DNA of 64,000 bases from Ulva prolifera (taxonomy: Eukaryota; Chlorophyta; Ulvophyceae; Ulvales; Ulvaceae). This document shows positions 846 through 59,323 of this stretch, piece after piece. Position 1 is the first letter of the stretch, and each line of letters starts with the position of its first letter. The notes beneath the pieces are model-generated. The model saw only the letters and a program-made list of their open reading frames with translations. It was not told where the DNA came from and did no database searches. The translations under genes were made by a program, and so were the position numbers. Where the stretch lies: contig CM041197.1 in the NCBI GenBank assembly GCA_023078555.1, forward strand, positions 434,001-498,000, read 5' to 3'.

Positions 846-3285
846 GGGGAGCAGTCGTCTGCGCCGGCCCCGGCTTGTGCGGCTCCTTTCGCGGCTGTCT
901 CTTCAAGGACTGCAACCTCTACGCCGTGCATGGCGCTGCCGCCACGCTCCAACGCTGTGCCTTGTGGTGTGTGCAGAGGGCCCTCCAGCTGCCTGCCGCC
1001 CTGAGGGGTCCGGCGGTGCTGGCCAGCGGCACGGGCACCAACGTAGTGCTCACCGACTGCGTCGTTGTCGCCTTCACGCACGCTGCCATTGCGGACGCCG
1101 GCGCCACCGTCACCGCCGCCGCGACAAGCGCCGAGCACTGCACCTCCGGCTACATCGCAAATGGCACTGGTAGTCACGTCGCGCTCACAGGCTGCGCCCT
1201 GAAGGGAGCACAGGGAGGCATTCATGGGGTGAGGGTCGACGGGGGCTCCATGCTGCTGCGTGGCTGCTCGGTCCGCGGCATATGCCATGGCACTGCAGGC
1301 TGTGAGCAGAGGGTCCACCGTGGAGGTGCACGACAGCAGATTGTGGGCCACAGATTCCGTCGTCAGCATCACAGGCGGCTGTGTCCTGCTGCGTGACACT
1401 GCCGTCGACGGGCCCGGCAGTCCGCGCTGCCGGCACGGACGGCGATTCGGACTGCCTCTCCGCTGTCCGTGTGGGCAACGCAAGAACACCTGAAGGCGGA
1501 GCCACAGTGACAGACCCGTGCTGGGCGCAGCCGGAACGCTGCAGCATCTCATATCGGTCAAAGTCGTCTAGGTTGCACAGCAGCGTGGAGCCAGTTCACG
1601 CCTCTCTGTGTGCCGCGCACGGCGCCGTGGTGGCGATGCACCTGTGCCGCGTTGAAACGCTTGCAGTGCCAGAGGCCACGGGGTCTGATCCCAGCTTTGC
1701 TGTGGCTGCGATCGAGGGGGGCCGCTTGTGCATGGCACACTGCCACGTGGCCAGCAGCGGCAATTGCAACTGCACGGTGACGGAGGACTCAGTCCTGCGT
1801 GCGGCTGCGTGCCGCCTGGAGATGCTCAACACCTCGGCCAGCCTTCGCGTCTCTGCCAGCAGCGTGACACTCGTGGACACATGCATTGTGGAGAGCGGCG
1901 CCTTGCCGCGGGGGGGCCGGGGGATGATGGTGGCCACAGTCGGCGCGACGCTGCGACTGCTCCGCACCACCACCGCCTGCTCGCGCAATTTTGCATCAGT
2001 GATTGACAGCACCGTGACCGCTGTCGGCTGCTCTGCTTCGTGGCTGCAACGCCCCAACGAGGATCATCCCACCTCCAATAGCGGGCCGGGCACAAGCGCA
2101 CTGCAGCCCGCACTGATCTGCCACGACTCTGCGGTCGAGCTGCGGGGGGGTGCACGTGTCTTCAAGGGCTTCTCAGTTGGTGTCTCTTTCACGTGTGGCC
2201 AAGGCGCGGGCCGCCTCGGGATCATCGGGAGGGATGTTCTGTTTGATGGCTGTGAGTCGGGTGTTAAGATTTCAAGCGATCACGGCCGTGTTGGCCCTGT
2301 GGAGCTCGAGATGCTGCAGTGTTCACTGCGCTGCCAGCGTGGTGTGGGCGCAATGGCATTGGTGCTAGTGGCCCGGTGGTGGCGCACATATCTGGGTGCA
2401 GCGTGGAGCAGATGACCTCGGCCGGAGTGACGGTCTGTAGCGGCGCTGAGGCTGTGATTGAGCGCACTGAGATCATTTTGTGCTGTTTTGCCGTGTTAGC
2501 GTCGAGCGCCAGTGCACTACTCATGCATGACGTGCACGTCGTCTGCTGCAGTCATGACAGTGTGGGCGTGTGCCTCGGCGCGGGCATGAACGATGCGGAG
2601 AGCTGCGCCGTGTGTGACTGAGGTGGGGAAGAGGGCCGGTCGGTGGCACTCGCCGCGGCGCAGGCCTCTGGGTGGCAGGGGGCCTTGGGCGCGCGGTGTG
2701 TGCACGAGGGCGGATTGGCGACGGCTGCGATGGAGCGGGTGCTGATTGAGGGCGCGGCGTTCGCGGTTGTGGTTAATGTCTTCGGCCACATGACTGCGAT
2801 TGATGTGTGTGCTGCGTACTGCCGCAGCCTGTTCATGGCAGTGCCCGCGGCTGAGCCAGTTCATGGCAGTGCCCATGGCTGAGTCCGGTGAAGTGTGCGC
2901 AGAGGCGCAGCCTGTGGACTGGCTCGTTGTCAGCCGCCTGGGGGATGATGCAATTGCCATGCTTGCGCTGCAGCACCTGCGAGGGCTCGTGGAGTATGAG
3001 GGTCCTGTTGCACCACTCCACGATGGACAGGCGGCGGCACCGGTCCAGATGACGGCTGGGGCTCGTGATTGTCCTGCGGAGCATTGCGTACCTTCAAGTG
3101 CTGCAGGAGACGCATGCATGCCGGGCTGTCGTCCGGCGGAGCGGGTCCGCCAAGTTGACCGGGGAGTGTTTGACGGGGAGATGACGGGCGACTGGATTGC
3201 CGCGACTCTGTGTCTGCGGATAGCTGCGATAGTGGGCGAGGTCTTGTTGATGGCAATGCTAGCAGAGAGCAGCCACAGGGTGTGA
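846..3285 (+). pseudogene. A1: decayed beta-helix array gene, exon 3 only
   Basis: This stretch is homologous to exon 3 of A2-A6, starting after a usable acceptor (TGCAG at 841-845) with GGAVVCAGPGLCGSFRGC. Family landmarks follow in order: NGTGSHVAL, TVEVHDSRLW, AMHLCRVE, SVTLVDTC, ATLRLLRTT, GARCVHEGG, and the C-terminal TGDWIAATLC segment. The reading frame changes near 1300, 1400-1440, 2360 and 2860. An in-frame TGA (2619-2621) sits inside the CxxCG motif. The last shift is explained by a 28-bp tandem duplication at 2832. No exon 1 or exon 2 is found within 845 bp upstream. It is closest to A2, sharing for example CHVASSG and AAACRLEM. I infer a dead paralogue at the edge of the array. 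Confidence 0.85.
2832..2887 (+). repeat. 28-bp tandem duplication inside A1
   Basis: Unit 1 (2832-2859) and unit 2 (2860-2887) both begin TTCATGGCAGTGCCC. 28 is not a multiple of 3, so the duplication itself moves the downstream A1 frame. One unit alone would restore continuity with the SGEVCAEAQPVDW segment. Confidence 0.85.
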
Positions 3286-3957
3286 CCATCGTACAGCAAG
3301 GCTGTAGTGGCATGCATGGAAGTCAGGCTCAAGGTCTCACACTCCGAGATGTTGCATGTGAGAGACAGAAAGTGACCGTCTGCGCTGCTGCATTGCATAG
3401 TCATGCATCGAGCACAGCGCCTGTGGGTGCCACCAACTTCGCAGCCCCGATCGATGCATGAGTACATGGCAGTAAGATCTGCATGCCGCTCCCTGCAGCT
3501 GACAATCCTAAAATTGACTGCTTGCTCTCGGCGAGTAGGTGTGTTTTCGTCACACAGTACTGCACAAATTTCTCACTCTTTCGCCTGAAGGACTTTTTTT
3601 TAATTTCTTATTGGACTTGATCTGAGGTCGTCACGCGTCTCTCGACGCCTGTCAGCCTAGGGCTTCGTGCTGAAGCAGCTGCCAGATCGCTCGACGTCGA
3701 CACTCGCGGGAGCGCAGCGCTACAATGCGACGACCAACTCGTGCATGGCTGCACTCTCCACCATAACACGATGTCCAAGCAGCGACTCACATTGCAATGG
3801 GTTTACTTGCTATCATCACACGACCCATCGCCTTCGGTCAACGGTTTGGACGTGTGCAAGAGACTGTCGCTACCAAGACATGATGCTGACCCACGATAGC
3901 CTTTATGCATAATTCTCCATTGTATAGGCTTTAGGATACCTGCTGCGGTGTCCTGGA
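3286..3957. other. A1-A2 spacer
   Basis: No gene is seen. A T-rich run occurs near 3594-3612. The last 20 bp hold the short block shared with A3 and A4 upstream regions. Confidence 0.5.
3942..3955 (+). promoter_or_regulatory. Conserved 14-bp block upstream of A2 start
   Basis: CTGCGGTGTCCTGG lies 2 bp before the ATG of A2. Matching blocks occur before A3 (8723) and A4 (13915), giving the consensus CTGCRRTGWYCTGG. It may be 5' untranslated sequence or a translation/transcription signal, or only residual duplication similarity. Confidence 0.35.
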
Positions 3958-6900
3958 ATGTCCATGGAGGCATGGGCACCGTTCTCTGCCCTGAACCACC
4001 GCTGCGACGTGTGTAGCCACATCGTCAGCCCTGCTTCACCCGAGACGCGCCAGGATGCTCACTGCCAAATCTGTTATGATTTGTGTCTATGTTACGCCCC
4101 TCCCGTCATGCAAAGGATGGGCCGTCCATGCTTCCTTCCATCGCAGAGTCTGAAATGGGAGGGCCTGTCGTGCACAAAGGCGACGCACTGCCACCAGAGA
4201 CGTTACACACAGGTGAGATTCAGGCTGTTTTTGTACCACACTCCTTAACGCATTGCATGTGCGGTGCCAAGACGCACACTGCAGCTGTGAGCAGCAGAAG
4301 CCACTCTCAGACGCACAGTACATCAATTAGAAGTCATCTACGCTGGCTAGAATAATACAGTGACTTCACCGAAGTCTCGCTAGTGCCCTTCTGCGCCTCC
4401 AGGTATGGCCAGCAGCTGCAGAGCTAGCTCCAGCGGTGCGCAGATGTCCAGCCTCGCCCTGCGGAGCAAGAGCACGCCCCTGCTACGCCCCTGGGCCCAA
4501 TTGCCCAGCCGTTTACAACTTGTAGCAAGTCCACACCATAATATTCCACCCAACTATGACACAACATGCTGTGCGCAAAACATGTGCTGCCTTGCACCCG
4601 ACCGTAACATGTGTTGGCGCTTCACCTGCCCCCTCACGCTGCAGGCACCGTTGACATGGTTAGAAGAGCTCCTGGCTGAGCTGTCTGCTGGCCAGGGGCG
4701 CATTGACCTGCCTGGGAAGGCACTGGCTCCCAAGAAGTCCCGCCATCGTCGGGTAGACACCCTGGTGGTCTACCGGGCATCTCCCGTGGGGGCGCTCGTC
4801 ATGCGGGGGGCGGTTCAGCTGCCTGCCCAGTGCGTGCTGCTGCTGGACGGCCGCGGCGCCCACTTCGAGGACGTCACCTTCTCAGGTGCACCTTCTGCAT
4901 GCATGCACGTGCAACGCAAGCGGGTCGTGTCTGCTTAGTGCATTTATCTGGCTGCCGTCCGATACATGCTCTGAAAGATTTTGCTCAGCGTGCCTGGGAG
5001 CGATGACCCGACCGCTGCCATGCGAGATGCGGTCTTCTCCGCCCGGTACGTCAGCCAGCGTTGCAGCGACTGTAACATCAGCACACCCGAATCTTGGAGA
5101 CGTCAATGGCCCAACGGAGGTGGCTATGTCCTCATGCATGCAGACACCAGCACTCCAACGCGGCACAGACTCTGAATGCATGCACGTCCCGCTCTGTGCA
5201 TGCAGCACTGCCTCAGTAGGCAATGGACCTGCGCCGCTGCTGCGTTGCATCTCAGTGGTAGCTCTGGAAGCAGCTGACCTTGTGCAACTGATCAGCATGT
5301 GCATGCACCACCAGCGTGTGCATGACCCTGCACCACCATGGCCCCCCCCACACAGACCCCGCTGCATGCAGGAGGTGCGGTCATCTGCGCCGGCCCTGGC
5401 TACTGTGGTTCTTTCCGGGGTTGCACCTTCAAGGACTGCCAGCTGTACGCCGTGCACGGTGCTGCCGCCACGCTGCACTGCTGCGCGTGGTGCACTTCGA
5501 GTGCCGGACTCCGCAGGGCGTGTGGCGGCGCCGCCATCGTGGCTAGCGGCGCTGCCACCTGCGTGACGCTCTCTGACTGCATCGTGAGCGGCTACACTCA
5601 TGCTGCGTTTGTGGAGGGCGAGGCCACCGTGACCGCCTCGGCGATCACTGTCGCGCATTGTGCTTCAGGGTTCATCGCAAATGGCACCGGTAGCCACATT
5701 GCCCTCAGCAACTGCATCCTGTGCGGGCGGCTTGTTGGTGAGCAGGGGGTCAGGGTGCATGGGGCGACTGCACTGCTGCGGAGCTGCACGGTCAGCGGAT
5801 ACAGCACTGCACTGTCCATGTGCGGCATGGGGGCCACCGTGGAGGTGCATTCCAGCACCTTGTCGGCGGAGGACAACGTCGTCGAAATGGCAGGCTCCGG
5901 CTGCGCGCTGCTGCGGGACACTGCTCTGAAGGAGTCTACAGGACCGAAGGGCATGCCATGCATCTCTGCTGTCCGCGTCTTCCATGAACTCGGATCCAAA
6001 AGCCGCTCGTGTGCTGTCCTGCAGTCGTGCAATGTGCACCTTGAGCGCTGCTGCGTGTCACACCACTCAGCCTCGCATAGAGGTGACAGGAGCACACAGA
6101 AGGGGAAACGCTGCGTGTGCTATGCTGGGGGTGCCGCGGTGGTAATGCACCTGTGCCGCATTGAACATGCATGGCCGGTGAGGACCGTGGCAGATGCCCC
6201 ACAAACGGCGGACGTGTTTGACGGGGGCCGTTTGTCCTTAACGCATTGCCATGTTGCCAGCAGTGGCAGCTACGTCGTGCGCAACGCCTCTGTCTTGCGC
6301 GCGGCAGCATGCCGCCTCGAGATGGTCGGCGCAGCGGCCGGGGTGTCTGCCTCCGGCGGCATCGTGACGCTGGTGGACACGCGATTCGTGGAGGTTGGCT
6401 GCTGGCCGAAGCAGAAGCGGTCATGTCCAATGGTGACGGCTTGCTCGGGCTCGACGCTGCGGCTGCTCCGCACTGACTCGGCCAGCTCGCATGATCTCGC
6501 GCGCGTGATCGACAGCACCTTGACTGCAGTGGACTGCACAGTTCAGTGGCTACGGTGTCCGCATGAAGGGCACACCACCCCTGACGGCGCCGATGGCGCA
6601 CGCGCAACACCTGCGGTGCATGATGACGGCATCACAGACGGTGAGACTCACGGAGGCATAGTCATCACCTACTCGGGTGGCGCACCTGGTGCGGGCCGGG
6701 CAGCAGGCCGGCCCGTGGCGGTTCTTCGGGATGTGTCGTTTCGTGGCTGCCATGTGGCGCTTGAGGTCATGAACCAGCACACGCATGTAATGTCTGTTGG
6801 GGTCGAGGTGGTGCGGTGCTCGATGGACCGCGGCACATTTGGCGTGCAGGCCCGCGGCAAGGTCGTCATGCGCATAGCTGCATGCAGCATCATGCATGCC

Positions 6901-8722: not shown

Positions 8723-8736
8723 CTGCAATGACCTGG
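8723..8736 (+). promoter_or_regulatory. Conserved 14-bp block upstream of A3
   Basis: CTGCAATGACCTGG corresponds to the block before A2 and A4. It directly precedes the codon that aligns with the family start. Confidence 0.3.
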
Positions 8737-8737
8737 G

Positions 8738-11700
8738 ATATCTTTCGAGGCGTGGGCCCCGTTCTCTGCCCTGAACCGCCGCTGCATGGCGTGCAGTCAC
8801 ATCATCGGCCCTTCATCTACCGAAACGCGTCAAGCTGCTCGCTGTGAGGTCTGCTTCGGATCGGAATTCACAGATCTCCCTCCCGGCGTGCAATGGCCGG
8901 GCGGTCCATGCTTCCTTCCATCTCAGCTGAAATGGGAAGGCCTCGCGTGCACGTTGGCTGTGAAGTGCCAAGGGAGACGAAACAAAGTGGTATATTTCCA
9001 TCCGCGACTTTCTCACAATGTCTACAGCGATGAATGAGCTGTGCGGTGACGAGCCGCACACCAACGCAGTGAGCAGCAGTGAGCTGCGCCGTGCCTTCGC
9101 CATCGCCGTGTCTCGAGCCGCATCTGAACGTATTCTTAGTTTATTTCCTTTTGACAGCGTTGGGTCTAGTTTTTTTGGACTGTTGGGGCGTCCCTGCCCT
9201 TCTCTTGCACTCTCTACGCCACAGCTGCAGCAGTGGTATCTCGCGTATCTGAGATACGCGGATGTCCACCCACGTGGGTACCCCGCGGTACAGGAGCACG
9301 ACCCTGATTGATATCGGTTCGTCTCATTCAGCGCTGCCGGTGGCACCCGTGGCCTGATGACATGCTGATCCGCTGCCTAGCGCTGTCGCAGACACTGGAC
9401 TCGGAACATGCTGCGGCCAACACCTGCCTCCACACGGGCCCTGCCAATGCATGATCAGGCAAGTGGGCTGCTGTAGGCACCCTTCACGCGGCTGGAGGAG
9501 CCTCTGGCTGAGCTCCGTGCCAGCCAGGGGCGCATCGACCTGTGCGGCGAGACCCTGGCTCCGAAGAAGTCGCGCCACCCTCAGGACACCCTGGCAGTCT
9601 TCCATGCATCGCCGGCGGGCGCGTTCGTTGTGCATGGGGTGATCGAGCTTCCTGCGCGGAGCGTGCTGCTGCTCGATGGTCACGGGGCCCACTTTGAGGA
9701 CGTCACCTTCTCAGGTGCACCCTCTGCATGCATGTGCTGTGCAAGTGCGCGTGTTTCTGCCACGTGAGTCGTGGAAATTGTGGTAGCATTGCACTCATGC
9801 GGAGCGAACGTGAAAGGCATGCATTTACAGCAGCATGCATGCCTGAAAGCCTCTGAAGGCGATGGCCCTGTGGACGCTGGACAGCGTCCAAAGGCACGTG
9901 GCGCCGGGACGAAGCGTGTATGCGAATGATCACAACATGCTCCATCAACATGCTCCAGAAATGCACCATTTGCAGTGCCTCCGCTGTCTGCAGGAGGGGC
10001 AGTCATCTGTTCCGGCCTCGGCGCGTCGTTCAACGGCTGCACCTTCTTGGACTCCCAGCTCTACGCCACGGACGGCGCAATCGTCACGCTGCGCCGCTGC
10101 ACGTTCGCATGTGTGCTGAACAATCTGCGCAGCCACACGTCCAGCGGCGGCCCAGCTGTGGTGGCCAGCGGCGTCGCCGCATGCGTGACGCTCGATGATT
10201 GCGCTCTACATGGCCACCTGCATGCAGCCCTCGCCGAGGCCGGGGCCACGGTATCCGCCGCAGCCACCACCGTCCGGCGCTGCGCGTCCGGCTTCACATC
10301 GAATGGCACCTGTAGCCACGTCCTTCTGAGCGACTGCGTTCTGCACGGGTGCCCGGCCAGCCCGCACGGGGTCCGAGTCCAAGGGGGATCTGCGACGCTG
10401 CGATGCTGCTCGGTCAGCGGCTATGGCGCTGCGTTATGCCTGCTGGGAGAACACTCCATGGCGGAGGTGCATTCCAGCAGCTTCTGGGGCAAGGGAATCG
10501 CCGTGAACATCACAGGCAATGCCTGCGCCCTGCTGCGGGACACCTCCATCGAGGAGCCCGATGCTGGCACGACCTGTACTTCCGCTCTTCACGCCTCCCG
10601 CGAAAGCAGATCTGACCGAATCAGATCTCCCACCCTGAGGTCCTGCAGCGTGCAGCCAGAACGCTGCAGTGTTTCCCATCAAACAAGCTTGCGCAGAGAG
10701 CGCGGCGGCGCACTGGAGCGGCCCATCGCTGTTTCAGTTGTGCACGGCGCCGCAGTGGCAATGCACCTGTGCCGTATTCACCAGATTGATCAGCATGCAT
10801 GGCCGGAGGGAACGCATGAAAGCCTTCCGACCGCGGCGGCTATCACCGGAGGGGGCCGTGTGTGCATGACGCATAGTCACGTGTCCACCAGCGGCGCGTG
10901 TGCTATGTGCGACCACTCGACTCTGCGTGCGGCTGACTGCCGCCTGGTGATGGCCGGCGCAGCGGAAGGGGTTTGCGCGGGTGCCAGCAGCGTGGCACTG
11001 GTGGACACGCTCCTCGAGGAGAGCGACTCCTGGCCAAGGGCAGCTCTGCCGCAGGCGGTGGTCTGTGCTTCGCCTGGCACGACTCTGCGGCTGCTCCGCA
11101 CCAACTTCACCGGCTCTCGAGAGTTCGCGATTATGCAGAGCGGCTCTGTAACTGCAGTTGACTTCTCCTTCGAGTGGCTGGCGCGCGCCGACGACGACCA
11201 CGCCTCCTCCGACGGCAGATGTGGTGCGAGCTCATCGGGCGATGCTCTGCTCCTCACAGAGTCTTCTGTCGACCTGCGGGGGGGCCAAGTGATAGGCTTT
11301 GCGACCGGTCTTTTCATGTTGACGGAGGAGGGGCCGAGCTTGTGCCCCCTCAAGGCCGCGTGCATGGATATGATGTTTTGCGGCTGCCAGGTGGGGGTCA
11401 GGGTTGAGAGTGAGGACAGGAGTGAGGTCGGTGTGGACGTTGTGCGATGTACGATGGAGGGCGGAGAGCACGGGGTCCTTGCGCGGGGCCCGGTTACGGT
11501 GCGAGTTGCGGCATGCTTCCTGACTGACATGACCATGGCTGGGGTAGCTGCTGCGGATGGTGCGAATGTGACAGTTGAGCGAACTCGGTTCAGCATGTGC
11601 CACGTCGGCCTGTGGTCGTTCGGCGCGTGCTCCGCGTTCATGCGTGATGCGCATGTGGTGTCGTGCGGGGGCAGCAGTGTGGGGGTGCTAATCGGCGACG

Positions 11701-12386
11701 ACCTGAAGGACGAGGGCGAGGACTGTCGTGCCTGTGGCCGCCGCGGCGTGGCGGGCCGGACGGCGGCGCTCGTCGCGTTGCGGGCTTCGTGCGTGCAGGA
11801 CAAGTTTGGCGCGCGGTGCGTGCATGAGGGCGGCGTGGCGGAGGTGGTGATGGAGCGGGTGCTGGTTGAGGGCGCGCGCGCTGCGATTTCAGATGACCTG
11901 CTCGACGGGGGCGTGAGCGCGAGCGGCATGTGTGCGGCGTTCTGCGGCGCTGCGCACGTCGACGCAGAGGGACGCGAGCTGCCGCGGGCGGAGCTACAAA
12001 CGCGTGCGAGCCATGTGGAATGCTCCGTTGCCAGCCGTGGGGGGGATGTTGCTGTCACTGTGATTGCATTGCAGCACCTCTGCAGGCGCCGGGGCGGTGA
12101 GGGCGACACAGAGGCGAAGCGTGGGTGTGGGGGGTTGCCGGTGGATGATCTGGTGTGTGTTGGTGCTTCTGCTGTGAAGAGAAGTTGTGGAACTTCTGAC
12201 GATCAAGGGGAAAAGGATATAGCAACGCCATGTGTTGCTGAATATCACTGCAGACTACGGCGGGGAGTGTGTGACGGGGAGCTGACGGGGGCCTGGATTG
12301 CTGATGCTCTATGTCAGCACATTGCCGTGTCAGTTGGGAAGACTGTGTTGCTGGCATTGCTGATGGGGAGTAGCCAAACAATGTGA
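8738..12386 (+). CDS. A3: beta-helix array protein with altered start codon
   Basis: Exons are 8738-8986, 9477-9714 and 9994-12386, phases 0 and 1, open throughout (about 958 residues if counted from 8738). The codon aligned with the family ATG reads ATA (8738-8740), followed by SFEAWAPFSALNRR. An in-frame stop lies 3 codons upstream, so that start is lost. The next in-frame ATG is 8786 (MACSHIIG), which would keep the CxxC pair only partly, as it begins one residue before the second cysteine of CMAC. Exon 2 is 238 nt, as in A4. Exon 3 has GGAVICSGLG, NGTCSHVLL, CRACGRRG...RCVHEGG and a hydrophobic tail (VLLALLMGSS). The 5' exon donor is AAA|GTGGTA. Closest paralogue is A4. It may be a recent pseudogene or may use the internal ATG. 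Confidence 0.75.
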
Positions 12387-13914: not shown

Positions 13915-13928
13915 CTGCGGTGATCTGG
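13915..13928 (+). promoter_or_regulatory. Conserved 14-bp block upstream of A4 start
   Basis: CTGCGGTGATCTGG lies 7 bp before the A4 ATG and matches the blocks before A2 and A3. Confidence 0.35.
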
Positions 13929-13935
13929 ATCCAGC

Positions 13936-16900
13936 ATGGCCTTTGAGGCGTGGGCTCCGTTCTCTGCGCTGACCCGCCGCTGCATGGTGTGCGGTCACAT
14001 CGTCAACCCTTCGTTACCCGAGACGCGCCATGTAGCACGTTGTGATGTCTGCTTTGGATCAGAGCTCTTAGAACTGCCTCCTGGCGTGCAATGGACGGGC
14101 GCCCCGTCCTTCCTTCCGTCTCAGCTGAGATGGGAAGGCCTGGCGTGCACAAAGGCGGTCAAGTGCCAAGGGAGGCGCAGTAGAGAGGTTTATTTCCATC
14201 TGCGACTGTTTCACGCTTTCTAGAGCGTCGCATGAGCTGTGCGGTGCCGAGAGGCACACCAACGCAGTGAGCCGAAGTGCACTATGCCGTGCCTTGGTCA
14301 TCGCGGTGTATTGATTCGCAGCTGCATCTGTTGTCGATGTCGTTATGTACGACCGCATCGGGAATCCCGCTGGGGCGCCTTGTCCTGCTGCTCCATTCTG
14401 TACACCACAGCTGCTGCTGCAGTACCAACGCTGTCCCTCCAACCCGGGGGTGTGGGAGCTCGTCTCTGATCGAATCCGTTCTATCTGCTTCTGAGCTCCT
14501 GATAACTCCTGGGGCCGATGACATGCTGATGTGCCGCCCAGCACTGGCGCAAACACTAGGCAGCAGGTTGCTCGGATGCCTCTTTCGGGCCCGGACTTCG
14601 GAGTGTTCAATGCCTTAATGGATACGGCAATGTTATCATGCATACTACGTACACAATCTCATAGACACGGCACGATGCCCGGCCTCTGTCCTTTGTAACT
14701 ACATACACCATGCTCCGAGTAGACAGCGTCCAAACAGCCCCCGGATGAGCACTACCAAGGCATGATCAGTCCACTGCGATAATGCAGGCTCCTCTGTCGT
14801 GTCTGGACGAGCTCGTGGCTGAGCTGTCTGGCAACCCGGGGCGCATCGACCTGTGCTGCGAGACATTGGCTCCAAGGAAATCGCGCCACACACAGGACAC
14901 ACTGGCAGTCTTCCGGGCATTGCCGGCGGGAGCACTCGTCGTGCAGGGGGGGATCGAGCTGCCTGCACGGGGCGTGCTGCTGCTGGACGGCCGCGGCGCC
15001 CACTTCGAGGACGTCACCTTCTCAGGTGCAACCCCTCCCCCCTCCTCCCCCAAGCATACACACACAGATGTTCGCGGAAGAGGTTCACCCATCGCGTTTG
15101 TGTTCTCCCTTCTGTAACACTGATCTATGTCTGTGCATGCGCTGTGGATCTCCGCTTCTCGCTGTCAAGCGAGTGTACCTCCAGCATCAACAAACTCATG
15201 GCGAGGAAGCCTGCACTGCGGACATCGATATTCACATGCATGCTGCCTCACATGCACGCTGCCTCTGAAGGCGATGGTGCCGGGGTAGTGTATAGCATCG
15301 GCATGCGACTCCGCCGGTACATGCAGGAGGGGCCGTCATCTGCGCCGGCCTGGGTGGATCATTCCGCGGCTGCAACTTCAAGGACTCCCAGCTCTGTGCT
15401 GTGGATGGCGCAACCGTCACGCTGCGCCGCTGCACATTCTCTGCCGTGCTGACCATGCGGATCGGCGCGTTCCGCGGCGGCCTGGCCGTGGTGGCCAGTG
15501 GCGCTGGCGCATGCATGACGCTCACCGAGTGCACATTGGACGGCCACGTGCACGCCGGCGTCGCGGAGGCCGGGGCCGCGGTGTCCGTCGCAACCACCTC
15601 CGTCAGGCGCTGCACGTCCGGCTTCGCCGTACACGGCACTGGTAGCCACCTCGCGCTCAGCAGCTGCGACATGCGGGGCAGGAGGGCCAGCGCGCTTGGG
15701 GTCATGCTCCACGGGGGCTCCGCAACGCTGCGGTGCTGCACGGTCAGCGGGTACGGCTCTGCGCTCGGCCTCTTGGGAGAGGGGTCGACCGCGGAAGTGC
15801 ACTCCAGCCGCTTGTGGGGGGATGGAATCGCTGTGAACATCACAGGCACCGGCTGCACCTTGCTGCGGGACACTGCCATCGAGGAGCCCACTGCCGGCAC
15901 GGCCTGCACGTCCGCTGTTCATGCCTCCCGCGACAGCCATCTTGACCGCAGATCCACCGCCCTGAAGACATGCAGCGTGCAGTTGGAGCGCTGCAGCGCC
16001 TCACATCAGATCAAATGGTGTGGAGCACGCAGCGGCGATGCGGAGAAGCCCATTACGGTTTCAGTGGCGCGCTGGGCTAAGGTGGCGATGCACCTGTGCC
16101 GCGTGGAGCAGGTTGATCAACATGAATGGCGGCGGCGCCCGCATGCAGATGCTACGCCCGCGGTGGCTGTCACCGCGGGGAGCCGTGTGTGCATGACGCA
16201 TTCGTACGTGTCCACCAGTGGCGAGTGTGTTCTGTGCAACAACTCGATGCTCCGGGTGGCTGACTGCCGCCTGGTGATGGCCGGCGCCGCGGCAGCGGTC
16301 CTCGCGGCTGCCAGCGTCGTGACCCTGGTGGACACGCGCCTCGAGGAGTGTGGCTCCTGGCCGATGACAGAACAGCGGCTGCCAGCGGTGGATGCCAACA
16401 CTCGGGCAACGCTGAGGCTGGTCCGCGTCAACTTTGCCGGCCCACGAGGACTAGCGTCCGTGCAGGACAGCGCCGTCACTGCTGTGGGCTGCTGCATCGA
16501 GTGGCTGCTGCATCCCGCCAAAGACGATGTCAGCTCCGATAGCAGACAATGCGTATGTCCCCTGCGTGATGCACTGGCCTGCAGGGAATCTTCTGTCAAG
16601 CTTCGAGGGGGGTCTGTCACCGGATTCAGGACCGGTCTCCAGGTGTTCACAAGCGCGTGGCCCCTCGAGGCCGTGTGCACGGACGTTGTGTTTTCTGCCT
16701 GCGAGGTGGGAGTATGTCTTGAAAGTGAGAACATGGGCAAGGCGGCGGTCGATGTGGTGCGGTGCGGTGTACAGGGTGGCGAGCGGGGCATCATGGTGAG
16801 TAGCCCGATTGCGGTCCGCATCGCGGCGTGCACCCTGAGTGGAATGACTGTGGCCGGGGTGGCTGTTGCGGGCGGTGCGGAGGTGACCGTCGAGCGTTGC

Positions 16901-32978: not shown

Positions 32979-33344
32979 TCACGCTACTTCAACCCGGGAG
33001 TCTGGTGCGAAAGCGGAGCGGTCCGTAGGACTTGCCATGTGGGAGCGGTGCAGCCTGTAGCCCGCAGCGCACCAGTCCACGGCCGTCGGGGAGGCTGGCA
33101 CGGCACAGGAAAAGCACCTGGAGGCTGAGCAGCTGGCCACCATGGTGCGGAGGAGGCGCAGCGCAATACCTGTGCGCGTTTTTCGGCTCTCACAGCCGCT
33201 GAGCCGCTTGATACCAGTGCTGTCGGCAGTGAACCCGCAGCCATAATGCGTGTTGCTGGTCGCTGCCACATTTACATCGGCCCCGGCTTCCGCGAGGGGG
33301 GCGTACATGTATACGTAGCCGCTACGTAGCCGGCTGCCATGCAT
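32979..33344 (-). pseudogene. Inverted relic of array exon 3
   Basis: On the - strand an open frame reads APLAEAGADVNVAATS, then CGFTADSTG, then ALRLLRTMVAS and PTAVDWC. These match, in family order, AEAGATVxAAAT, GFxxNGTGS, LRLLRTxFxGS and VTAVDxS of A exons 3. The long segment normally between GTGSH and LRLLR is missing. It is the only family sequence in the window pointing the other way, and it marks the end of the A block. Confidence 0.65.
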
Positions 33345-47090: not shown

Positions 47091-47128
47091 CAGTTCTAGT
47101 TTATCCACACCTGACGCAGCGCAAGGCC

Positions 47129-50100
47129 ATGTCCACCCAGGTCTGGAGCGCTCGTTGCGAGGAGTCTGTCCGCGCCCATGTCTGCGGCCACTTGTCAAAG
47201 GTAGCATTATCTGCTGGGAAGATCTCAGATGCCAGCAGCTGCGCCAAGTGTGGGTGTGGCAGTTCTGGTGCATCCGTCATTGACCGTACGCCAACGTCCG
47301 ATCTCAAATGGAGTCTAGCAACGTGCGCCAACTTGAAGAATACAAAGTCTCGAAAAGGTATCAAGGTGAGATCGCAACAGATGCTGTGCCTCAATGCAGT
47401 CACATGCGCAACCTTCGATGTTCCTGGCGTGCGAGTGTTTCGCGGAGCGACCGAGACTTCTGATGAAGTACCAATCGAACAACAGACCATGGTGGCTCAG
47501 TATTAAGATGTAGGTTAATTACGGGTCCTTCCGGTTGGAGCTATCAGCATGTCAGCCCCAGTTGGTATTCCGAAAACGTCGTGATACGCCGTGGCTGTGC
47601 CCCGACGCTGCAAGCACCCTTTGTGCCTGAATGTTTACATACGAAACTGTTTGTTAACTGTGCATATGAGTGCAGGGGGCTGCTAGGTCACTCAAGGACC
47701 TGGTCGCAGAGATCACAGAGCGCAATTTCCATGTGACGCTGCCACCGGAAGTGCGCCACGAGAAGCATGTCAAAGGCGCGCCTGCGCACGGCTTCATCGT
47801 CTGGCGTTGCTCAACTTTCGGTGGCGTCGTCCTCGGGGGCAACATCACAATTGTGCCCGATGGCGTCTTCTTGCTGGCTGGCAAAGGAGCTCACTTCAGA
47901 GGCACTGCCTTCACTGGTGCGTGCATCCTGGTCCGGTCTGCACACAATGCACACATGGCAGTGGCTCCTGTTCTGCAACCCACCAATTGCAGTCTCAGTG
48001 TACACGAAGCAGTCAGCTCTTCCGCGCTATACCAGCTCGCCTGCAGTCTTGTCGGTGCATCCTTCAAGAATGCAACGAGCCATCCCGCCTCTGTCGCATC
48101 GCCAGCCCGCTGCCCGCGTCTTGCCACCACATTCTGTCACAATCCAGCACTCATCCCTGTGATAGTGGTCTGACTGCGTGATGTGGGCCAACACTTCACT
48201 GCAGTCACAGTTTGGGGCAACCTCGTGAAGAGCTGATGGGACCTTCAGCTTCCGCTGCAACCGCAACCGCCACAAGTCACGGGGCTTCAAACCCACTGCA
48301 CATGGCACAGCACCAGGCCCTACTTCCTGCAATAGCTAGTCTGAGACCGCTGTGCTTCACCGGCTGCCTGAGTGATGCCTGCCCACAGCCGGTGCCGGTT
48401 CAGAAGCCACATGTAGCCATTGCCTCCCTCAAAACGAGCTGCAGCCGGCAATCATCACATGGCTGCTCTACAACAGTGTGAGCGAGTGTGAGGTCACACG
48501 ACGCTGCGAGCTCCTCCTCCTTGAGATCGTTCCCACTGCAAACAGATCATGTAGTTCATCGCTTTATGGCATTACCAACTGCCCTGTTGCAGGTGGCTCC
48601 ATCATATGTGCCGGTGAGGACTTCTTCGGAACCTTCCAGAAGTGTAGTTTCAGTGCCTGCACGGTCTACATCGTTCACGGCGCCTCCGCCGCCCTGTCCG
48701 ACTGCTTGTGGAACAACTGCCCCGCCGCCCTCGTCGCCCACGGCCCCGGCACCGCCGCCGCCCTCACCAGCTGCATCCTCACCACCTGCCGCTTCTGCGT
48801 CATCGCCGAAGCCGGGGCCTCCGTCTCGGCGCAGTCCTCCACGCTCCACGGTGTAGCCGCCACCGCCTTCGCCGTGAACGACCCCGGTAGCCACGTTTTC
48901 GCCCAGGACTGCACCCTCACCGGCACTGGTGGTCCCCGCGCTCCCGCCCCTGGCTACACTATCGAAGGCAGCTGGCTGCGCATGCATGGCGGCACGGCGC
49001 GGCTGCGCCGCTGCCACATTGCGGACTTCCCTGCGAGCGCCGTCGCCGCGGGCGCCTCGGCATCGCTCGAAGTGCAGACGACTTACATCCGCTGCGACCA
49101 CGCAGTCACGCTTGCGGACGGCGCGCGGGGTGCCGTCACGGACGTCCACTTTCGCGGCGAGGGGCTGCCGGGGTCGATCGTCATGAAGCTGGACCGCACA
49201 TCAGGGAGGGGGTCCCAGGGAGGAGCGCGGCTGCAGCTCAGCCGCTGCAACATGCGGGCCCCGGCTGCGACGGCGATCACGGTCCACGAGGGCGGCGCTG
49301 CCGCGCTCCGCCTGTGCCGCCTGCGGGGCGAGCACTGTGTCACAGTGGAGGGCCCCGGTAGCCACGCGGTGTCGTCGGGCTGTGACAGTTGCGGCACGCG
49401 CGTGTGCTACCACGTGCAGCATGCGGGCTCGGCGCTGCGCATTGAGGGTGGGAAGGCGGTCGCTCCAGGGGCTGCATGCATTGCGAGCCACGATGCCGTT
49501 GTAGGGGCGGCCGATGTCTGCTTCCGGGGTGGACCGCGGCCACGCCTGCGGCCCAACACGCCCAACGCCACCGTCGTGGTGGAGGCCGGGGCGAGCGGGC
49601 GCTTCTTGCGTTGCAGCGTCCCAGAGGGCCACATCGGCATGCATGTGGACTCCGCCCGGGTGCGCGTGAAAGACTCGAGCGTGGGCGACTCGGGCACGGC
49701 GGCGGACAGCACATCCCCGCCCACCATCCCCATGACGCGTCCGCTCCTTGCCGGCATGCCTGCAGCGTATGTTTGCAGCGGAGGCGACTGCGACATCGAG
49801 GGCGGGGTCCTGGGGGACTGCATGGTCGGCATCCTCACCTCGCCGGCCCCGGAAGGGCCGCGGGGCACGGCTGTCCTGCGCATGCATGGAGTGGTGCTGA
49901 AGCGGTACGGCCAAGGAGTGCATGTGCAGGATGCGGCACGGGTGGATGTTGCGGGGTGCGAGTTTGAGGGCCACGCAAGCCTCGCCCTGTGCCTGGGGGC
50001 TCTGTCCGCACTGGGTTTGGACGTGGATGGAGGGATGCTAGAGGGGGGGATCGCACTGAGAGGGGCCCGGGCTGCGACCGTGCGGGACTGCTCGTTCCGC

Positions 50101-51228
50101 GGGAATCTGCAAGACGTGTTTGTAGACAAGGACTCGTCCGTTGATGTTGCGGACTGCGTGTTTGCGGGAGTGGCTGCGGGGTCCACGGCGGACGATGTAT
50201 GTAGCGTGAAAACACTGGCCAAGACGTCGGTACAGGGGTGCAGTTTCTCCAATGTGGGGAGCGCAGTTGTCGCGGACGGCGTGGAGGCTACGTGCGCAGT
50301 GAGAAAGTGCACGGCGGGGCGCGGAGTGGAGGAGGCCTTCTCCGCGAGCGGCGGCGCGAGCATGTCGGTGCTCGACTGCGAGGTGCGCGCCACCCTCAAC
50401 GGGCTGGTCGCGAGCGGCGGCGCAAGCCTTGCGGCGCAGGACTGCGAATGCACCGCCGCCTCAGCGGCCCTGATCGTGGGGCATGGCGGCGGCATGCTCA
50501 GTGCAAAGCGCGTCAAAGCTCACGGTGAGAATGTGGCTGCCTGCATGTCCGCGGGCGCCGACAGCGCACACCTCAAGCTTGCCGATTGTCAATTGTCGAG
50601 CTTGAAATCGGGGCTCCAGGTGCTGGGGGTGCATAGCAAGGTTTCGCTCCTGCGCTGCACGGTGTCCGCAAATCAGCTGGGATTGACCGTGGGTAACGGC
50701 GGAACCGTAAAGATGCGAGAGACGCAGATCTCGCGGTGTGAACTCGGCTTGAATCTTGGGGAGTTTGCGCCCGATGTGGAATCGCCGTGCGAAATCTGTG
50801 GGCGGGCCGGAGAAGTGGCGCTCCAACATGCATGGGACGCTCTGCTCGCGCGCGGCACGGCACACTGGCCGGACGCCCGGTGCGTGCACGAGGGGGCGCA
50901 GGTGCGTGTGACGCTGGAGGACGTGCGAGTGCGGGACTGCAGCGACACGGCGGTAGTGGTGTCGCGGAACGCGGTGGTGTCGGCGCGGCGGGTTGACGTC
51001 GCCGATTGCGCGGTGGGTGTTCATGTGGAGAGGGCGGCAGGCTCGGAGAAGAGCAGCTTCAGGCAGTGCACGGTGTCGGGGGGGTATGCCTGTGGTGTGT
51101 GGAGGGGCGGCACGGCTTCACGGACGCTGCTGTGCGTGGGCCCCCTTGCGGGTGACTTGGAGCTGAGTGGGGCGGTGGAAGGCGTGGCTGCGGTTGGCCC
51201 GCCTTCGCTAGGGGGTGTACATGCGTAG
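47129..51228 (+). CDS. B2: three-exon beta-helix array protein, subfamily B, intact
   Basis: Exons are 47129-47365, 47676-47916 and 48593-51228. The spliced frame is 1037 residues, the longest intact copy. Exon 1 encodes MSTQVWSARC, VCGHLS, CAKCGCG and LKWSLATCANL. Exon 2 encodes SLKDLVAEI...FLLAGKGAHFRGTAFTG. Exon 3 begins GGSIICAGEDFFGTFQKC and continues with many Ala/Gly/Cys rungs (AVNDPGSHVFAQDC, GASASLEVQ, VRVKDSSVGDSG). CEICGRAG...RCVHEG lies at about residues 890-922, then a polar C-terminus ending GGVHA without the hydrophobic tail of A. No signal peptide is apparent. Function is unknown. It is the best reference for subfamily B. Confidence 0.86.
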
Positions 51229-52572: not shown

Positions 52573-55500
52573 ATGTCCGCCCACGTCTGGCGAGCTCGCC
52601 TCGAGTATGCTGCCCGCGCCCATTCCTGTGGCCACATTTCGAACGTATCTCTATCTGTTGGTACTACTAGAGCTCTTGATACCTGCACCAAGTGTGGGTG
52701 TGGCAGCGCGGGGGCATCCGTGCTTGACCGTGTGCCAACACCGGATATGACCTGGAGTGGCGCAGTCTGCTCCAAATCGCTGCAGCTCAAACCTCGAACA
52801 GGTGGAAAGGTAAGCCGTCGACATGGACAATCTCTTGATGCTGTCAGATGTGCAACGCCTGGCCATGGCGTGAAAACTCTAGAAACACTAGTGTACTGCC
52901 TTGGTACAGCTCTTGGTACACTGCTGCTGAGATATCGATCACTTGCCGAACGAATGGACCGCTCGTCTACGAATGATGGTATACGTTACCGAGTCGCCGA
53001 TTTGGTCATCCTGTATATCAGTGCGACATTCCGAAGCTGAGTGCTGCGGAGGAGATCGAGATATGTTCGCTGAGGCAGAGCAAGGGCGACGCAAGCAGCC
53101 CTTCAATAAGGTATCTTACATCACATACATCCACAAAGGCATGTAAACATTGCGTGTATGCTTTCAGGGTGCTGTGACGTCCCTCGAGGACCTCGTGTCG
53201 GAGATCACAGCTGGAAACTTCCACGTGGTACCACCACCTAAGCTGCGCCGTGTGAAGCATTCCAAGAGGCCGCTGGTGCATGGCTTCATCGTGTGGCAGT
53301 GCCCGACTTTCGGTGGCGCCGTTGTGGGGAGCACCATCACGATTGCCACGGACGGCGTCTTTCTGCTGGCCGGCAAGGGGGCGCATTTCAGAGGCACCAC
53401 GTTCAATGGTACGTCCACCGGCCAACAGAGCACCTGTGGGGTAGGGGTGCGCATGTTACCCATAGCGCCTGTAGCTACATAGGCCCTGGGCTATGCGCAC
53501 CCGGAGGCATGCGTGATCGATTCACGTACGTGATCATATGCATGATCACGAGTCGACTTGCCATGCACTGTATTTGCAATTGTATCGGACGGCAAGGGCC
53601 TGAGCTCAGGGCACCCGGATGCATCCATGCCGTAGATTGCCATACCTGGGCCTGAGCACAGGGCACCAATCTGTCAACACCCACTCCAGACGGGTTTTCG
53701 GCAGCGGTGTTGCTGCATCGATATCCTTCGTGGGTGCAGGGAGCCTGGTGTGCAACGAGCCATCGACATTTCTTTGTTTCACCTCTGCGGATGCACTGCA
53801 TCATCAGGCTGCTGCCCGTGTGCAGTGTTGGGTCATCGGACCCGATCACATAGAACAATTCCGAATATCCAGGTCAATTTCTTGGGTAGCAGCCCTGAAA
53901 ATGCTGTAGAGCGACCCAACACTGTACCCATCAGGGCGTGGCACGTGCACCCTTCCCGTCCCTGTGCGTGCCTGTCACCACCTGTTGCCCTCAGGCAGAT
54001 CATCCTCTGGGTCCCTGTCGCTGCGGCTGCATACAGTGTGTCAGGATTCTTCTGGGCTCAGAAGCATCCTGCAGCGCGCCATCTGCTTCCTGATGCGGCC
54101 ATGTGCAACGCACTGCCCACCGCGTGCCAACACAAGCGCTCCCGGTGCAGGCGGCGCAGTCATCTGTGCCGGCTCGGATTTCTGCGGAACCTTCCAGAAG
54201 TGCACATTCAACGCCTGCACCCTGTACGTTGTGCACGGCGCGTCCACCACCCTGTCGATGTGCGGCTGGCGTGACTGCGCCTCTGCACTCGTCGCCCACG
54301 GCCCCGCCACCGCCGCCACCCTGACCGGCTGCGCCTTCACCACCTGCCGCTTCTGTGTCATCGCCGAAGCCGGGGCCTCCGTCGCGGCGCAGACCTCTTC
54401 GCTCCACGGCGTTGCAGCCACAGCCTTCGCCGTGAACGACCCCGGTAGCCACCTTTCCGCAGAAGATTGTTCCCTCAGCGGGGCCAGTGGGCTGAATGCT
54501 TCCACTGCAAACAAGTGCACCTGGTTGCGCATGCATGGCGGCATGGCGCGCATGCGCCGTTGCCATATCACCGACTTCCCTTTGCCTGCCGTCGCCGCTG
54601 GCGCCTCGGCATCGCTTGAAGTGAGTTCGACGTACATCCACTGCGCTGAGGCATGCATGCTGACAGATGGTGCGCGGGGGACGTTGACGGACGTCCAGTT
54701 CCGGGGGCAACGGCGAATGGGCGAAATTGCTGTGCGGCTTGACTGCGGGCCATCTCGGGGGTCCTTGGGGAACGCGCGGCTGCAGCTCACCCGCTGCGAC
54801 ATGCAGAGCCCGCCTGTGATGGCGGTGAGGGTGCGCGAGGGCGGAGCTGCCGCGCTGCGGCTGTGCCGCCTGCGCTGCTGCCGGTGTGTGACGGTGCAGG
54901 GCGCCGGCAGCCGTGCGGTGATGGCGCACTGCGACGGTCTCGGCCAGGACGTGTGCTACCAAGCGCGGGGCGCCGGCGCGGTCCTGCGGATTGAGGGTGG
55001 GGAGGTATCTGCCAAGGAGACCGCGTGCATCACGAGCGGGGAGGCCAGTATCGCGGCTGAGGATGTGTGTTTCCGCGGCGGTGTGGTGCCGTGGCTGGGG
55101 GGGCTCCAGCCAAACGCGGTCGTCGTCGTTGAGGACGGGGCGCGGGGCCGGTTCCTACGCTGCAGCATCCCAAAGGGCTTCATGGGCATGACTGTTAACT
55201 GCAGCCGGGTCCGGGTGAAAGACTCACTCGTCGCCAATATGGCCCCGACGACAGACGGGACAGATCATCTGTCTTTCGCCGGCCTGCGTTCGGCATACGC
55301 CTGCGTGGGCGGGGAGATCGACGTTGAGGGTGGGTCGGTGCAGAACTGCGTGTTGGGCGTCCTCACCTCGGGGATGCTGCACAAGACGCGGGAGCCAGTC
55401 AACCTGCGTATGCATGGGGTGGTCCTGAAACAGTACAGCCGGGGGGTACAGGTGAATGATGCGGACCGGGCTGAGATCAGCGGGTGCTTCTTTGACGGCC

Positions 55501-56666
55501 AGGCATCTGCGGCTGTGATGACCGTGAACGCGGATGGCGACTCCATGGAGGGGGCGGTCGTTCTGTGCGGGGTGAAGGCGGCGTCTGTGCGGGACTGTTC
55601 CTTCCGAGGCAACCTGTACGGGGTTGCCGTTGAGGACGATGTGGCGGTGAAAATCGAGGACTGCACGTTTGACGGGGCTGTTGAGGGCGGCGGGCCCGCC
55701 GCGGGGTGCAGCGTGCGGACGTCCTCACACGCGATGGTGGCCCGGTGCCGCTTTTCTGACTCGGAGTCCGCAGTAAGTGCGCATGGCCCGGCGGCGGCGT
55801 GCAAGGTGAGGAAGTGTGTGGTGGGGGCCGGAGTGCGAGACCCCTTCCCCTCGAGCGGCGGCGCGAACATGTCGGTCGTCGACTGCGAGGTGACGCGTTC
55901 GTTGTCCACGATGATGGGATTGTAGCAGCAGCACAGACATGCAACTGCACTGCAAACGTGGTGGCTGTGAGGGGCGTAGCCGGTGGCCTCACTGAAAAGC
56001 GGGTTCCCTGCGAGAGGTCGCGGCGTATCCGCGTCCTGCAGCGCTGACGTGACGTATCGGCGTGTGAGGTATTGATAAAAGTCCGCTGTTGCCCGGGGTG
56101 TCCGGGGTGTAGAGCAAGGGGCGTTGGCGTCTGCAGTGCACTGCGGGTTCCAGGTTGCCTCAGGGGCCATGAGCACCGGAGCGGTTGTGACAGGCAGAGA
56201 GGGGTGGACCTCGCATAGCGCAATGGGAATCTTGGGGAGTTTTCGAGAAATGTAATGGCGCCGTGCGGCACCTGTGCCATGGGCTTGGCCGGCGGAAAAT
56301 GGGCGGCACTGGTACTGCTCGTGTGTGATGTGGTGCAGGGGCGTGGGGGCCTGGTGCGTGCATGAGGGGGTGATGGAGAGGGCGAAGCGGGTGGCGGTGG
56401 TGCCGCGCGACCGCAGCGACACGATGCTGATGGTGGTGTTGAGGCACGCAGTTAGTGGGCATGGCCGGGTTGCCGATGCTTTATCGTGCCACATGATTCA
56501 TGTCTCGAGGCCGGCACAGGTGGAGAGTCGCCGCATCAGCCAGTGCACAGATGAGGGGGGGCCTGCCGCCGCGTGGGCTATGCTGTGCAAAGTGCCCATG
56601 CTTGGCGAACACTTGATGTGCGAGGGGCGGCAGGGCGTGGACGTGGTTGCGGATAGGGGCGTGTGA
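52573..56666 (+). pseudogene. B3: subfamily B beta-helix gene with decayed 3' end
   Basis: Exon 1 (52573-52809), exon 2 (53168-53408) and the first 1.77 kb of exon 3 (54151-55925) are open with correct phases. Motifs are CGHISN, CTKCGCG, SLEDLVSEI, GAHFRGTTFNG, GGAVICAGSDFCGTFQKC and AVNDPGSHLSAEDC. After CEVTRSLST the frame shifts and meets TAG at 55923-55925. Family sequence continues in another frame (CNCTANVVAV, GGLTEKRV), then degenerates with stops and a likely deletion. It is recognisable again at 56274-56666 (GAWCVHEG, RRISQCT) up to a TGA aligned near the B1 end. The product would be about 750 residues, lacking the CxxCGR...CVHEG insert. B3 is more diverged from B1 and B2 than they are from each other. 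Confidence 0.82.
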
Positions 56667-58107: not shown

Positions 58108-59323
58108 ATGTCCATCGAGGCGTGGGGCCCGGTCTCTGCGTTGACGCGACTCTGCCTGGCGTGTTGTCACGTCGCCAGTCCGGCAGACCCAGCTTCAGGT
58201 CATGCATTCCAATGCAGTTTCTGTGAACAGTTCTTCACTGGCTCCGAAGATGCCGGCCCACAGTTGGTGCTTTCGTACTGCTACGTTCCAACACAACTGA
58301 CAGAATGGGACGGACTCGCCTGCACAAACGTCGCACAGGCTCAAGGAAGGACACATTCGCAGGTTCATTGTTGATCACTTTCTGGTTCGCATCTGTTGAG
58401 AAGATTAGGCTGTGTTTCGCCTGGATGCGCACAGCCAACCTTGCAAGTTGTGGACGGCATTGCTGCTTCAGCGACGCGCCGAATACGATGGCACTTGGTA
58501 CATTTTCGTGACAGTGATGGTTTAGCAGTGCTCAGTGCTTCTTTTCACTTGCGCCGTGGTAGTCCTGGAATCGCAGTCCACCACCAGTCTACACATGCAC
58601 CTGAGCCTGTTCCCTCGCCCTACTGGGCCCCAGCAACACTGTTTCTTTCATGCCGCCCCTTGCCTGAACCGCCACGCCATTCCTGAGAGCGTCACTCTGT
58701 TGTCCCGTGTGCTTGTTTAGTAAAGTCCGCCGTAACGTCCCTTGCGAGCGGGCACAGGTAGGACGATGACCCGCATACTGACCAGTGAGCTGGAGTTCCC
58801 CCTCAAGACAAGGCCACGACACAACTGAACTGTATTATGACGCCCATGCCATTTGAGCTTGGCCTGTGTTCAAAACCACCAGTGCTCTCGTGGAATGTCT
58901 GTGCAGCACATGTCTCCCATGCATGGTGGTGCAGCTCTGCTGCCGTACGCGTGTGCCCCCCCCCACTGCCCCCACTGCAAACACGCGTTTGCTGTCTCTC
59001 TGACAACGCTGAGCAAGCCTGGGGTCGATCCAAAGCACTGGCTTTCTATTCCGCACGCATGACCTGGCCCCTCCTGCTGCGGGCGCCCTTCATGCTGCTG
59101 GAGGAGCTTCTCGCGGAGCTGCCTGGCATCCGGGGGCGCATCAACCTGTGCGGCAAGACCCTGGCTCCGAAGAAGTCCCGCCGCCAGGAGGGGGATACCC
59201 TGACAGTCTTCCGGGCATCACCGGTGGGAGGACTCATCGAGCAGGGGGGGGGTCATCTGCCATCCCGCAGCGTGCTGCTGCTGGACGGCCGCGGCGCCCA
59301 CTTCGAGGATGTCACCTTCTCAG
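58108..59323 (+). pseudogene. A7: fragment with exons 1 and 2 only
   Basis: Exon 1 (58108-58362) encodes MSIEAWGPVSALTRLC, CLACCH, CSFC and TEWDGLACTNVAQ before a GTTCAT donor. Exon 2 homology (59083-59323) encodes APFMLLEELLAELP through LLLDGRGAHFEDVTFSG with a normal donor. The acceptor before exon 2, CTGCAG in A5, A6 and others, reads CTGCGG here, so the AG is lost; an upstream in-frame AG (near 59010) might substitute. No exon 3 (GGAVIC...) is found in the following 1.8 kb before the transposase gene. It is an A-type copy beyond the B block, so A and B are not strictly segregated. It is probably a truncated duplicate. Confidence 0.8.

Follow-up and report, generated by a model that had tools for sequence, protein, structure and literature searches.

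In FBXO11, CASH domains form right-handed beta-helices that are important for substrate recognition, and the protein also has a zinc-finger UBR domain (PMC8825234). FBXO11 is the nearest functional likeness to the genes that we describe here, which join a Cys/His module, predicted to bind zinc, to a long beta-helix encoded by a single exon, and which form a tandem array in a window of 64,000 nucleotides of the green alga Ulva prolifera (contig CM041197.1, here called C2, positions 434001-498000, in a genome of 88.9 Mb). The two systems differ in that their zinc-site motifs are unlike and that the algal genes belong to a tandem family of dozens. We considered membership of the FBXO11 type and rejected it because neither of its other domains was found: no F-box at an expectation value (E) of 1 and no zf-UBR appear in the Pfam tables of the window or of exon 3, nor among the 25 commonest families matched by exon 1.

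The beta-helix fold also links the family to Pfam PF13229 (Beta_helix) and the pectate-lyase superfamily, in which PL6 is nearest by PDB fold. The algal proteins pass the curated PF13229 cut-off, but they lack a secretion stretch and conserved Asp or Lys, carry Cys/His clusters, and are encoded by three-exon algal genes. Polysaccharide lyases or epimerases such as PL6 have a conserved catalytic Lys/Arg, calcium-binding acidic residues and a secretion signal. The order C-x-H...C-x2-C in exon 1 recalls the RING-like folds that hold a single zinc, among them SP-RING (Siz/PIAS), although no match of exon 1 to these passes the Pfam cut-off and the profile comparison reported below is negative but weak. 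Finally, adenovirus E1B-55K (PF01696) and LH3 share the coil pattern and give partial profile matches, with snake adenovirus LH3 at rank 34 of our PDB fold search; the algal family, however, matches only part of the profile and is eukaryotic, intron-bearing and tandem.

Results

An initial annotation of the window, made from the sequence alone, had proposed a fixed plan of a cysteine module (exon 1), a short cap (exon 2) and one huge beta-helix exon (exon 3), present in at least ten copies plus a relic. Exon 3 lies at nine plus-strand places (with starts at 845, 5371, 9993, 15326, 22084, 29925, 42104, 48592 and 54150), and the copies fall into two groups, A (845-32333 together with a relic at 58-59 kb) and B (40.5-56.6 kb; Table 1). 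We spliced eight copies, five of which are clean, namely A1 (978 residues), A3 (958), A4 (976), A5 (964) and B2 (1037). These lengths reproduce the annotated ones exactly, and each of the five genes has an ATG start, GT...AG introns in phase 0 and then phase 1, as annotated, and no internal stop. Beside them stand three damaged copies (A2, B1, B3), one fragment (A0) and two relics, in one of which (A6) exons 1 and 2 are present while tblastn found no exon 3 in the window; the tally of ten copies and a relic is therefore reached only with damaged copies counted.

The same plan recurs outside the window. We sampled 23 further loci from the genome matches to B2 exon 3 (L046 was excluded from the exon scans) and searched them with profiles seeded with the window exons. 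Exon 1 was found upstream on the same strand in 22 of the 23 (L044 was missed) and exon 2 in all of them, in every case with a phase-1 GT donor and in 22 cases with an in-frame CAG acceptor. The script-picked exon-1 donor is GTGCG or GTACG in 16 of the 22 non-window exon 1s, other GT donors occurring in the window, and 18 of the 22 have the conserved ATG at the expected place, the exceptions being L032, L035, L038 and L039. This recurrence, together with the five clean frames, supports the earlier view that these are real three-exon genes. The fixed length given for exon 2, on the other hand, is a feature of the window copies: the eight that were spliced all have 238 or 241 nt, whereas the nearest acceptor gives 241-262 nt in 22 of the 23 non-window loci (several of which have more than one candidate), no acceptor having been found after exon 2 of L024.

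Exon 3 is confidently predicted to be a beta-helix, a solenoid of parallel strands, in agreement with the annotation. PF13229 matches all 30 aligned exon-3 products at E 1 or better (best E 3.4e-42) and scores 44-77 bits on the four window products scanned, against a curated cut-off of 25.9. The AlphaFold2 model of B2 exon 3, built from eight window sequences, shows repeating short beta-helix strands, with a mean predicted local distance difference test score (pLDDT) of 78.4, a predicted template modelling score (pTM) of 0.70, and 391 of 878 residues at pLDDT 90 or above. Structure prediction with a fold search had been suggested as a check of the annotation, and when run on B2 exon 3 it returned a beta-helix and matches that are mostly beta-helices. 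In the PDB, Foldseek places PL6 alginate lyases at the top, followed by other beta-helix enzymes, adhesins and tail spikes; since template modelling (TM) scores to the query are at most 0.25 among the 50 matches listed, fold class alone is common to both.

Could the proteins be carbohydrate-active enzymes or lectins that act on ulvan or other wall polymers? The PL6 matches (E 4.4e-6 and weaker) would be in keeping with this, as would the best PDB sequence match of the exon-3 profile, a fucoidan lyase matched over 53 positions with E 0.0048, and weak Pfam matches of pectate-lyase type (PF12708 in 17 of 30 products, best 4.6e-6). However, the first 12 fold matches, all of them PL6, have TM-scores of 0.14-0.22 and root-mean-square deviations of 28-33 Å, which speaks for fold class only. 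Moreover, the features of a lyase or epimerase are not seen in the columns of the 30-copy exon-3 alignment that are conserved at 90% or more, which hold one Arg, two Glu and neither Asp nor Lys. Outside the Cys/His motif described below, these columns are mostly Gly, Cys, Phe, Ala, Tyr and aliphatic residues, the only polar or charged ones being H29, E73, E160, Q215 and R218, and it is on this ground that we favor a non-enzymatic reading. The lack of a signal-peptide-like stretch in 22 products also counts against secreted enzymes, and the Cys/His motifs and high Cys content suggest a reducing compartment. We therefore consider a carbohydrate-directed role improbable.

Among viral predicted structures, beta-helices of giant viruses, poxviruses and phages lead the fold search (TM 0.08-0.41 in the 50 matches listed). 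The high rank of the giant-virus and poxvirus proteins makes one ask whether the family descends from a captured viral or mobile beta-helix gene that was retained for some role. Among the 30 members, 10 match Adeno_E1B_55K (PF01696) at E 1 or better, with 7.4e-7 as the best value, and this profile is found in none of 14 prokaryote control genomes although PF13229 is found in eight of them. Yet the E1B matches are partial along the profile, for which a shared coil pattern suffices, and two pattern scans of IMG/VR found no relative. The presence of exon 2 with its phase-1 donor in every one of the 23 further loci, and of exon 1 in all but one, argues for a long residence in the nuclear genome, so that we regard viral capture as very unlikely. 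One pattern scan of bacterial and archaeal genomes likewise gave no relative, with the limits that all three scans use one or two short peptide patterns and so miss divergent ones, and that the host genome was the only eukaryote searched. A scan of that genome with PF01696 (E 0.01) gave 12 places with partial profile matches, three of which pass the cut-off, one of these only jointly with its neighbours. All 12 lie in long frames (785-1027 aa), and 10 of them within rows of the family.

The annotation had recognised no named family. Our profile searches of Pfam, NCBIfam, PHROGs, PADLOC and PDB sequences agree, in that no named family with the whole architecture was found in them, and in the open-licence literature we found no description of a family of this kind from Ulva or any other alga, which does not show that it is unpublished. 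Thus the fold is known, while the architecture, the zinc-site motifs and the algal expansion were not found in the libraries or literature searched.

Two Cys/His clusters recur in the family. In exon 1, a Trp near the start is followed by C-x-H, 12-20 residues, C-x2-C, and then Pro and Trp. In the alignment of 28 of the 31 exon-1 matches (L035, A2 and B1 were dropped), C21, C37, P57 and W63 never vary, whereas R17, H23 and C40 are conserved at 90% or more (L041 numbering). In exon 3 the order is reversed, C-x2-C-G being followed by 24-33 residues and C-x-H. Its invariant residues are C725, C756 and H758, with C728, G729 and G732 at 90% or more (L024 numbering), across 30 of the 31 exon-3 frames, the truncated B3 having been dropped. 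In B2 this inner cluster consists of C733, C736, C764 and H766 and falls within a modelled insertion, residues 726-768, that is helical at low confidence. Each of the two clusters would, from its residues, bind one zinc. The annotation had named the cysteine module of exon 1 but not the second motif in exon 3.

The ligand order CxH...CxxC, the presence of CPxC in nine of the 28 exon 1s, and an Arg, conserved at 90% or more, that precedes the first Cys by four residues suggest a further alternative, that of E3-like ligases in which exon 1 would be a single-zinc RING with the distal site only, as in SP-RING, recruiting an E2, and the beta-helix would be the substrate receptor. SP-RING retains the distal zinc site alone, and UBR4 carries a single-zinc hemiRING (PMC10873205). 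Weak profile matches point in the same direction, both in the PDB (E3 ubiquitin ligase 6f98, E 0.23; PIAS3, 0.69; HRD1, 1.2; TRIM32, 1.7) and in Pfam (IBR in three of 28, best 0.022; zf-RING_5 in two, best 0.06; zf-MIZ in one, 0.14). But other zinc modules score equally well or better, and the likeness of exon 1 is to many small ones: the FmdE treble clef of Pfam in two of the 28 members (best 1.2e-4), zinc ribbons and, less strongly, RING types. The PDB search gives a zinc protein of lysine biosynthesis (0.013) and subunit P of RNA polymerase (0.029). B3 alone scores 12.5 bits against zf-MIZ, whose cut-off is 33.5. Comparison by hhalign of exon 1 with the host's best zf-MIZ match gave a probability of 0.1, which is a weak test because the host sequence used falls short of the Pfam cut-off and has no C-x-H pair. 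Nor does the AlphaFold2 model of exon 1 predict a fold (pLDDT 39). We regard an E3-like function as unlikely.

As to where the proteins reside, the annotation had seen no signal peptide, and the 22 non-window exon-1 products bear this out: their first 60 residues contain no hydrophobic stretch (15-residue Kyte-Doolittle maximum at most 1.36; no signal-peptide or transit-peptide program was run). Since the N-terminus is not hydrophobic and about 6% of exon-3 residues are Cys, the proteins would fit the cytosol or the nucleus. At the other end, G-[VI]-x-[VL], close to G-V-E-V-V, is found by eye near the C-terminus in 15 of 25 non-A tails (for example L024, L029, L033 and L039), eight of which have G-[VI]-E-V-[VL], while the group A tail differs and is GELxGxWIxxxLC...LLLALL-like.

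The family extends beyond the local array and lies mostly in one region of 0.43 Mb. With B2 exon 3 as query the genome gave 56 rows, 42 of which cover at least 90% of it, 38 of those without an internal stop; adding five A-group rows, there are at least 43 uninterrupted long exon 3s genome-wide. These counts are minimum values, the B2-query search having scored 52 of 120 first-look candidates, and refer to exon 3 only, with A2 and B1 included, an open exon 3 being no proof of an intact gene. By contig, 36 of the 43 are on C2, five on C1, and one each on C4 and C8, and 35 of those on C2 lie within 132.6-563.0 kb, the remaining one at 975 kb. Of two exon-1 queries (E up to 1), one matched C2 alone and the other C1, C2, C4 and C35, at places that largely overlap the exon-3 regions, although not compared place by place. 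Family matches of identical score occur about 43.55 kb apart at C1:9.427-9.446 Mb and C1:9.471-9.490 Mb, and an exon-1 match at C35:14-18 kb has a score equal to one on C1. These equal scores may mean that a segment was duplicated very recently or that the assembly contains one haplotype twice. On C8, L046 (5593994-5599970) is a 969-aa beta-helix frame beside a family member and without the usual exon-3 start, and a 1052-aa beta-helix frame lies at C8:5572973-5575951 (5573-5576 kb).

Close relatives tend to be neighbours on C2. For 19 of the 23 sampled C2 copies the nearest C2 relative is less than 50 kb away (for example A2-A3, A4-A5 and B1-B2-B3), and physical and tree distance among the 23 have a rank correlation of 0.22, which was reached by 12 of 2000 permutations. 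This adjacency argues for tandem birth and death, as the annotation had proposed. The ratio of nonsynonymous to synonymous substitutions (dN/dS, Nei-Gojobori) lies between 0.37 and 0.55 for the 30 closest pairs among 465. The corresponding ratio of proportions, pN/pS, in the six members of clade B, the only clade tested, amounts to 0.58 overall (strands 0.52, loops 0.65), and no 24-codon window reaches a value of 1 (range 0.33-0.96). On these values the genes are constrained and evolve moderately fast, without a segment of clear positive selection in clade B.

The annotation had also likened the cluster, as speculation, to recognition or defence gene clusters. An innate-immunity or self-recognition repertoire would accord with a tandem cluster containing pseudogenes and local clades, and with moderately fast protein evolution. 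We find no direct support for it, however: no 24-codon window in clade B exceeds a pN/pS of 1, and no model of the prokaryotic defence library PADLOC matches. A specifically immune role is thus not a likely explanation.

Table 1. Exons, fragments and relics of the beta-helix family in the window (window positions).
Feature	Position	Strand	Basis
A0, exon 3 fragment, pseudogene	845..3276	+	tblastn (845-1282, 1293-1478, 1519-2217, 2346-2858 with one stop, 2926-3276); frame breaks, one stop
A1 exon 1, Cys/His module	3958..4212	+	tblastn and splicing
A1 exon 2, 241 nt	4645..4885	+	splicing
A1 exon 3, beta-helix; spliced 978 aa	5372..7812	+	splicing
A2 exon 1, ATA in place of conserved ATG; start lost or elsewhere	8738..8989	+	splicing
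A2 exon 2, 238 nt	9477..9714	+	splicing
A2 exon 3, frame open; 960 aa spliced without ATG	9994..12386	+	splicing
A3 exon 1	13936..14187	+	splicing
A3 exon 2, 238 nt	14788..15025	+	splicing
A3 exon 3; spliced 958 aa	15327..17713	+	splicing
A4 exon 1	20701..20958	+	splicing
A4 exon 2, 241 nt	21504..21744	+	splicing
A4 exon 3; spliced 976 aa	22085..24516	+	splicing; PF13229 E 1.6e-14
A5 exon 1, CxxC without second Cys (CRFS)	28571..28816	+	splicing, alignment
A5 exon 2, 241 nt	29229..29469	+	splicing
A5 exon 3; spliced 964 aa; inner CxxC without second Cys (CRVG)	29926..32333	+	splicing, alignment
Exon 3 relic, small, inverted, one stop	33213..33409	-	tblastn E 2.8e-5
B1 exon 1, in-frame TAA, probably pseudogene	40524..40760	+	tblastn
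B1 exon 2, 241 nt	41068..41308	+	splicing
B1 exon 3, open	42105..44674	+	Pfam scan, splicing
B2 exon 1, CGH...CxxC module	47129..47365	+	splicing
B2 exon 2, 241 nt	47676..47916	+	splicing
B2 exon 3; spliced 1037 aa; AlphaFold2 beta-helix	48593..51228	+	splicing; PF13229 E 2.1e-21
B2 inner motif CxxCGR...CVH, inside low-confidence helical insertion	50788..50889	+	alignment, AlphaFold2 model
B3 exon 1	52573..52809	+	splicing
B3 exon 2, 241 nt	53168..53408	+	splicing
B3 exon 3, early stop (750 aa); similarity continues past stops to 56648	54151..55925	+	tblastn, splicing
A6 relic exon 1	58108..58362	+	tblastn
A6 relic exon 2, CAG acceptor replaced by CGG	59083..59323	+	tblastn

A probable unrelated gene, of the 3'-5' exonuclease (RNase D or Werner exonuclease) type, lies on the minus strand of the window at 35658-38351. 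PF01612 matches it weakly at 35658-36737 (E 0.0021, under the cut-off), and it contains LTPQQLRYASLDAAV, which we take to be the typical C-terminal motif of such exonucleases. At 61883-62509, also on the minus strand, there is a weak match to DUF4218 (E 0.03, under the cut-off), a domain frequent in plant transposons. Elsewhere on the contig, the first 400 bases of C2:1-1500 are a degenerate GGCACTATGTCG...-like satellite rather than a telomere repeat. Two other proteins of the genome bear on the host. A light-harvesting protein matches chlorophyll a-b binding proteins, mainly of the LHCII type, which places the host in the green lineage. The plastocyanin, assembled from two exons, agrees with PDB 7pcy, from Ulva (Enteromorpha) prolifera, at 98 of 98 residues and is less close to 1iuz (Ulva pertusa) and 2plt, so that U. 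prolifera or a close relative is very probable on this evidence too.

Discussion

We tentatively propose that these genes encode a large family of scaffolds that bind ligands inside the cell and have diversified through tandem duplication. Each gene consists of a CxH...CxxC module, a cap that forms the first coil, and an exon of about 800-900 codons that is predicted to fold as a beta-helix with a CxxC...CxH insertion, in a family that grows and decays by tandem duplication mostly within the one 0.43 Mb region. Zinc would then hold two knuckles in shape, one N-terminal and one projecting from the helix close to its C-terminal end. A ligand-binding face would be provided by the long helix and the knuckles might hold the target or dock a partner, and paralogues would come to bind different things as helix residues diverge after duplication. 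Such a division of labour would be like that reported for FBXO11, although the modules that achieve it differ. To connect the family with ubiquitin or SUMO would be no more than a guess.

Several observations weigh against this proposal. Each cluster of A5 has lost one Cys, and exon 1 of L038 has Gln in place of His. The exon-1 model, built from nine sequences, has the low confidence noted above. In the PDB, the folds that match best belong to carbohydrate enzymes, adhesins and tail spikes, and the subcellular place is deduced from sequence features. Moreover, pN/pS never exceeds 1 in the clade tested, so that rapidly changing specificity is not demonstrated.

A more specific version of the binding-scaffold proposal is that Ulva has dozens of intracellular receptor-type proteins, in which the beta-helix would be the recognition surface and the single-zinc module the effector or E2-docking end. 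We think this quite unlikely, but if true it would represent a new architecture for tandemly evolving intracellular recognition, with the beta-helix taking the place of leucine-rich or other repeats.

More generally, with a three-exon plan that recurs and two Cys/His clusters that hardly vary, this is a definable family with testable zinc sites, and one that the profile libraries name no further than 'Beta_helix'. At least 43 uninterrupted long exons in a genome of 89 Mb are a large investment for a seaweed. Should the binding role prove true, beta-helices would constitute an expandable intracellular repertoire in green algae.

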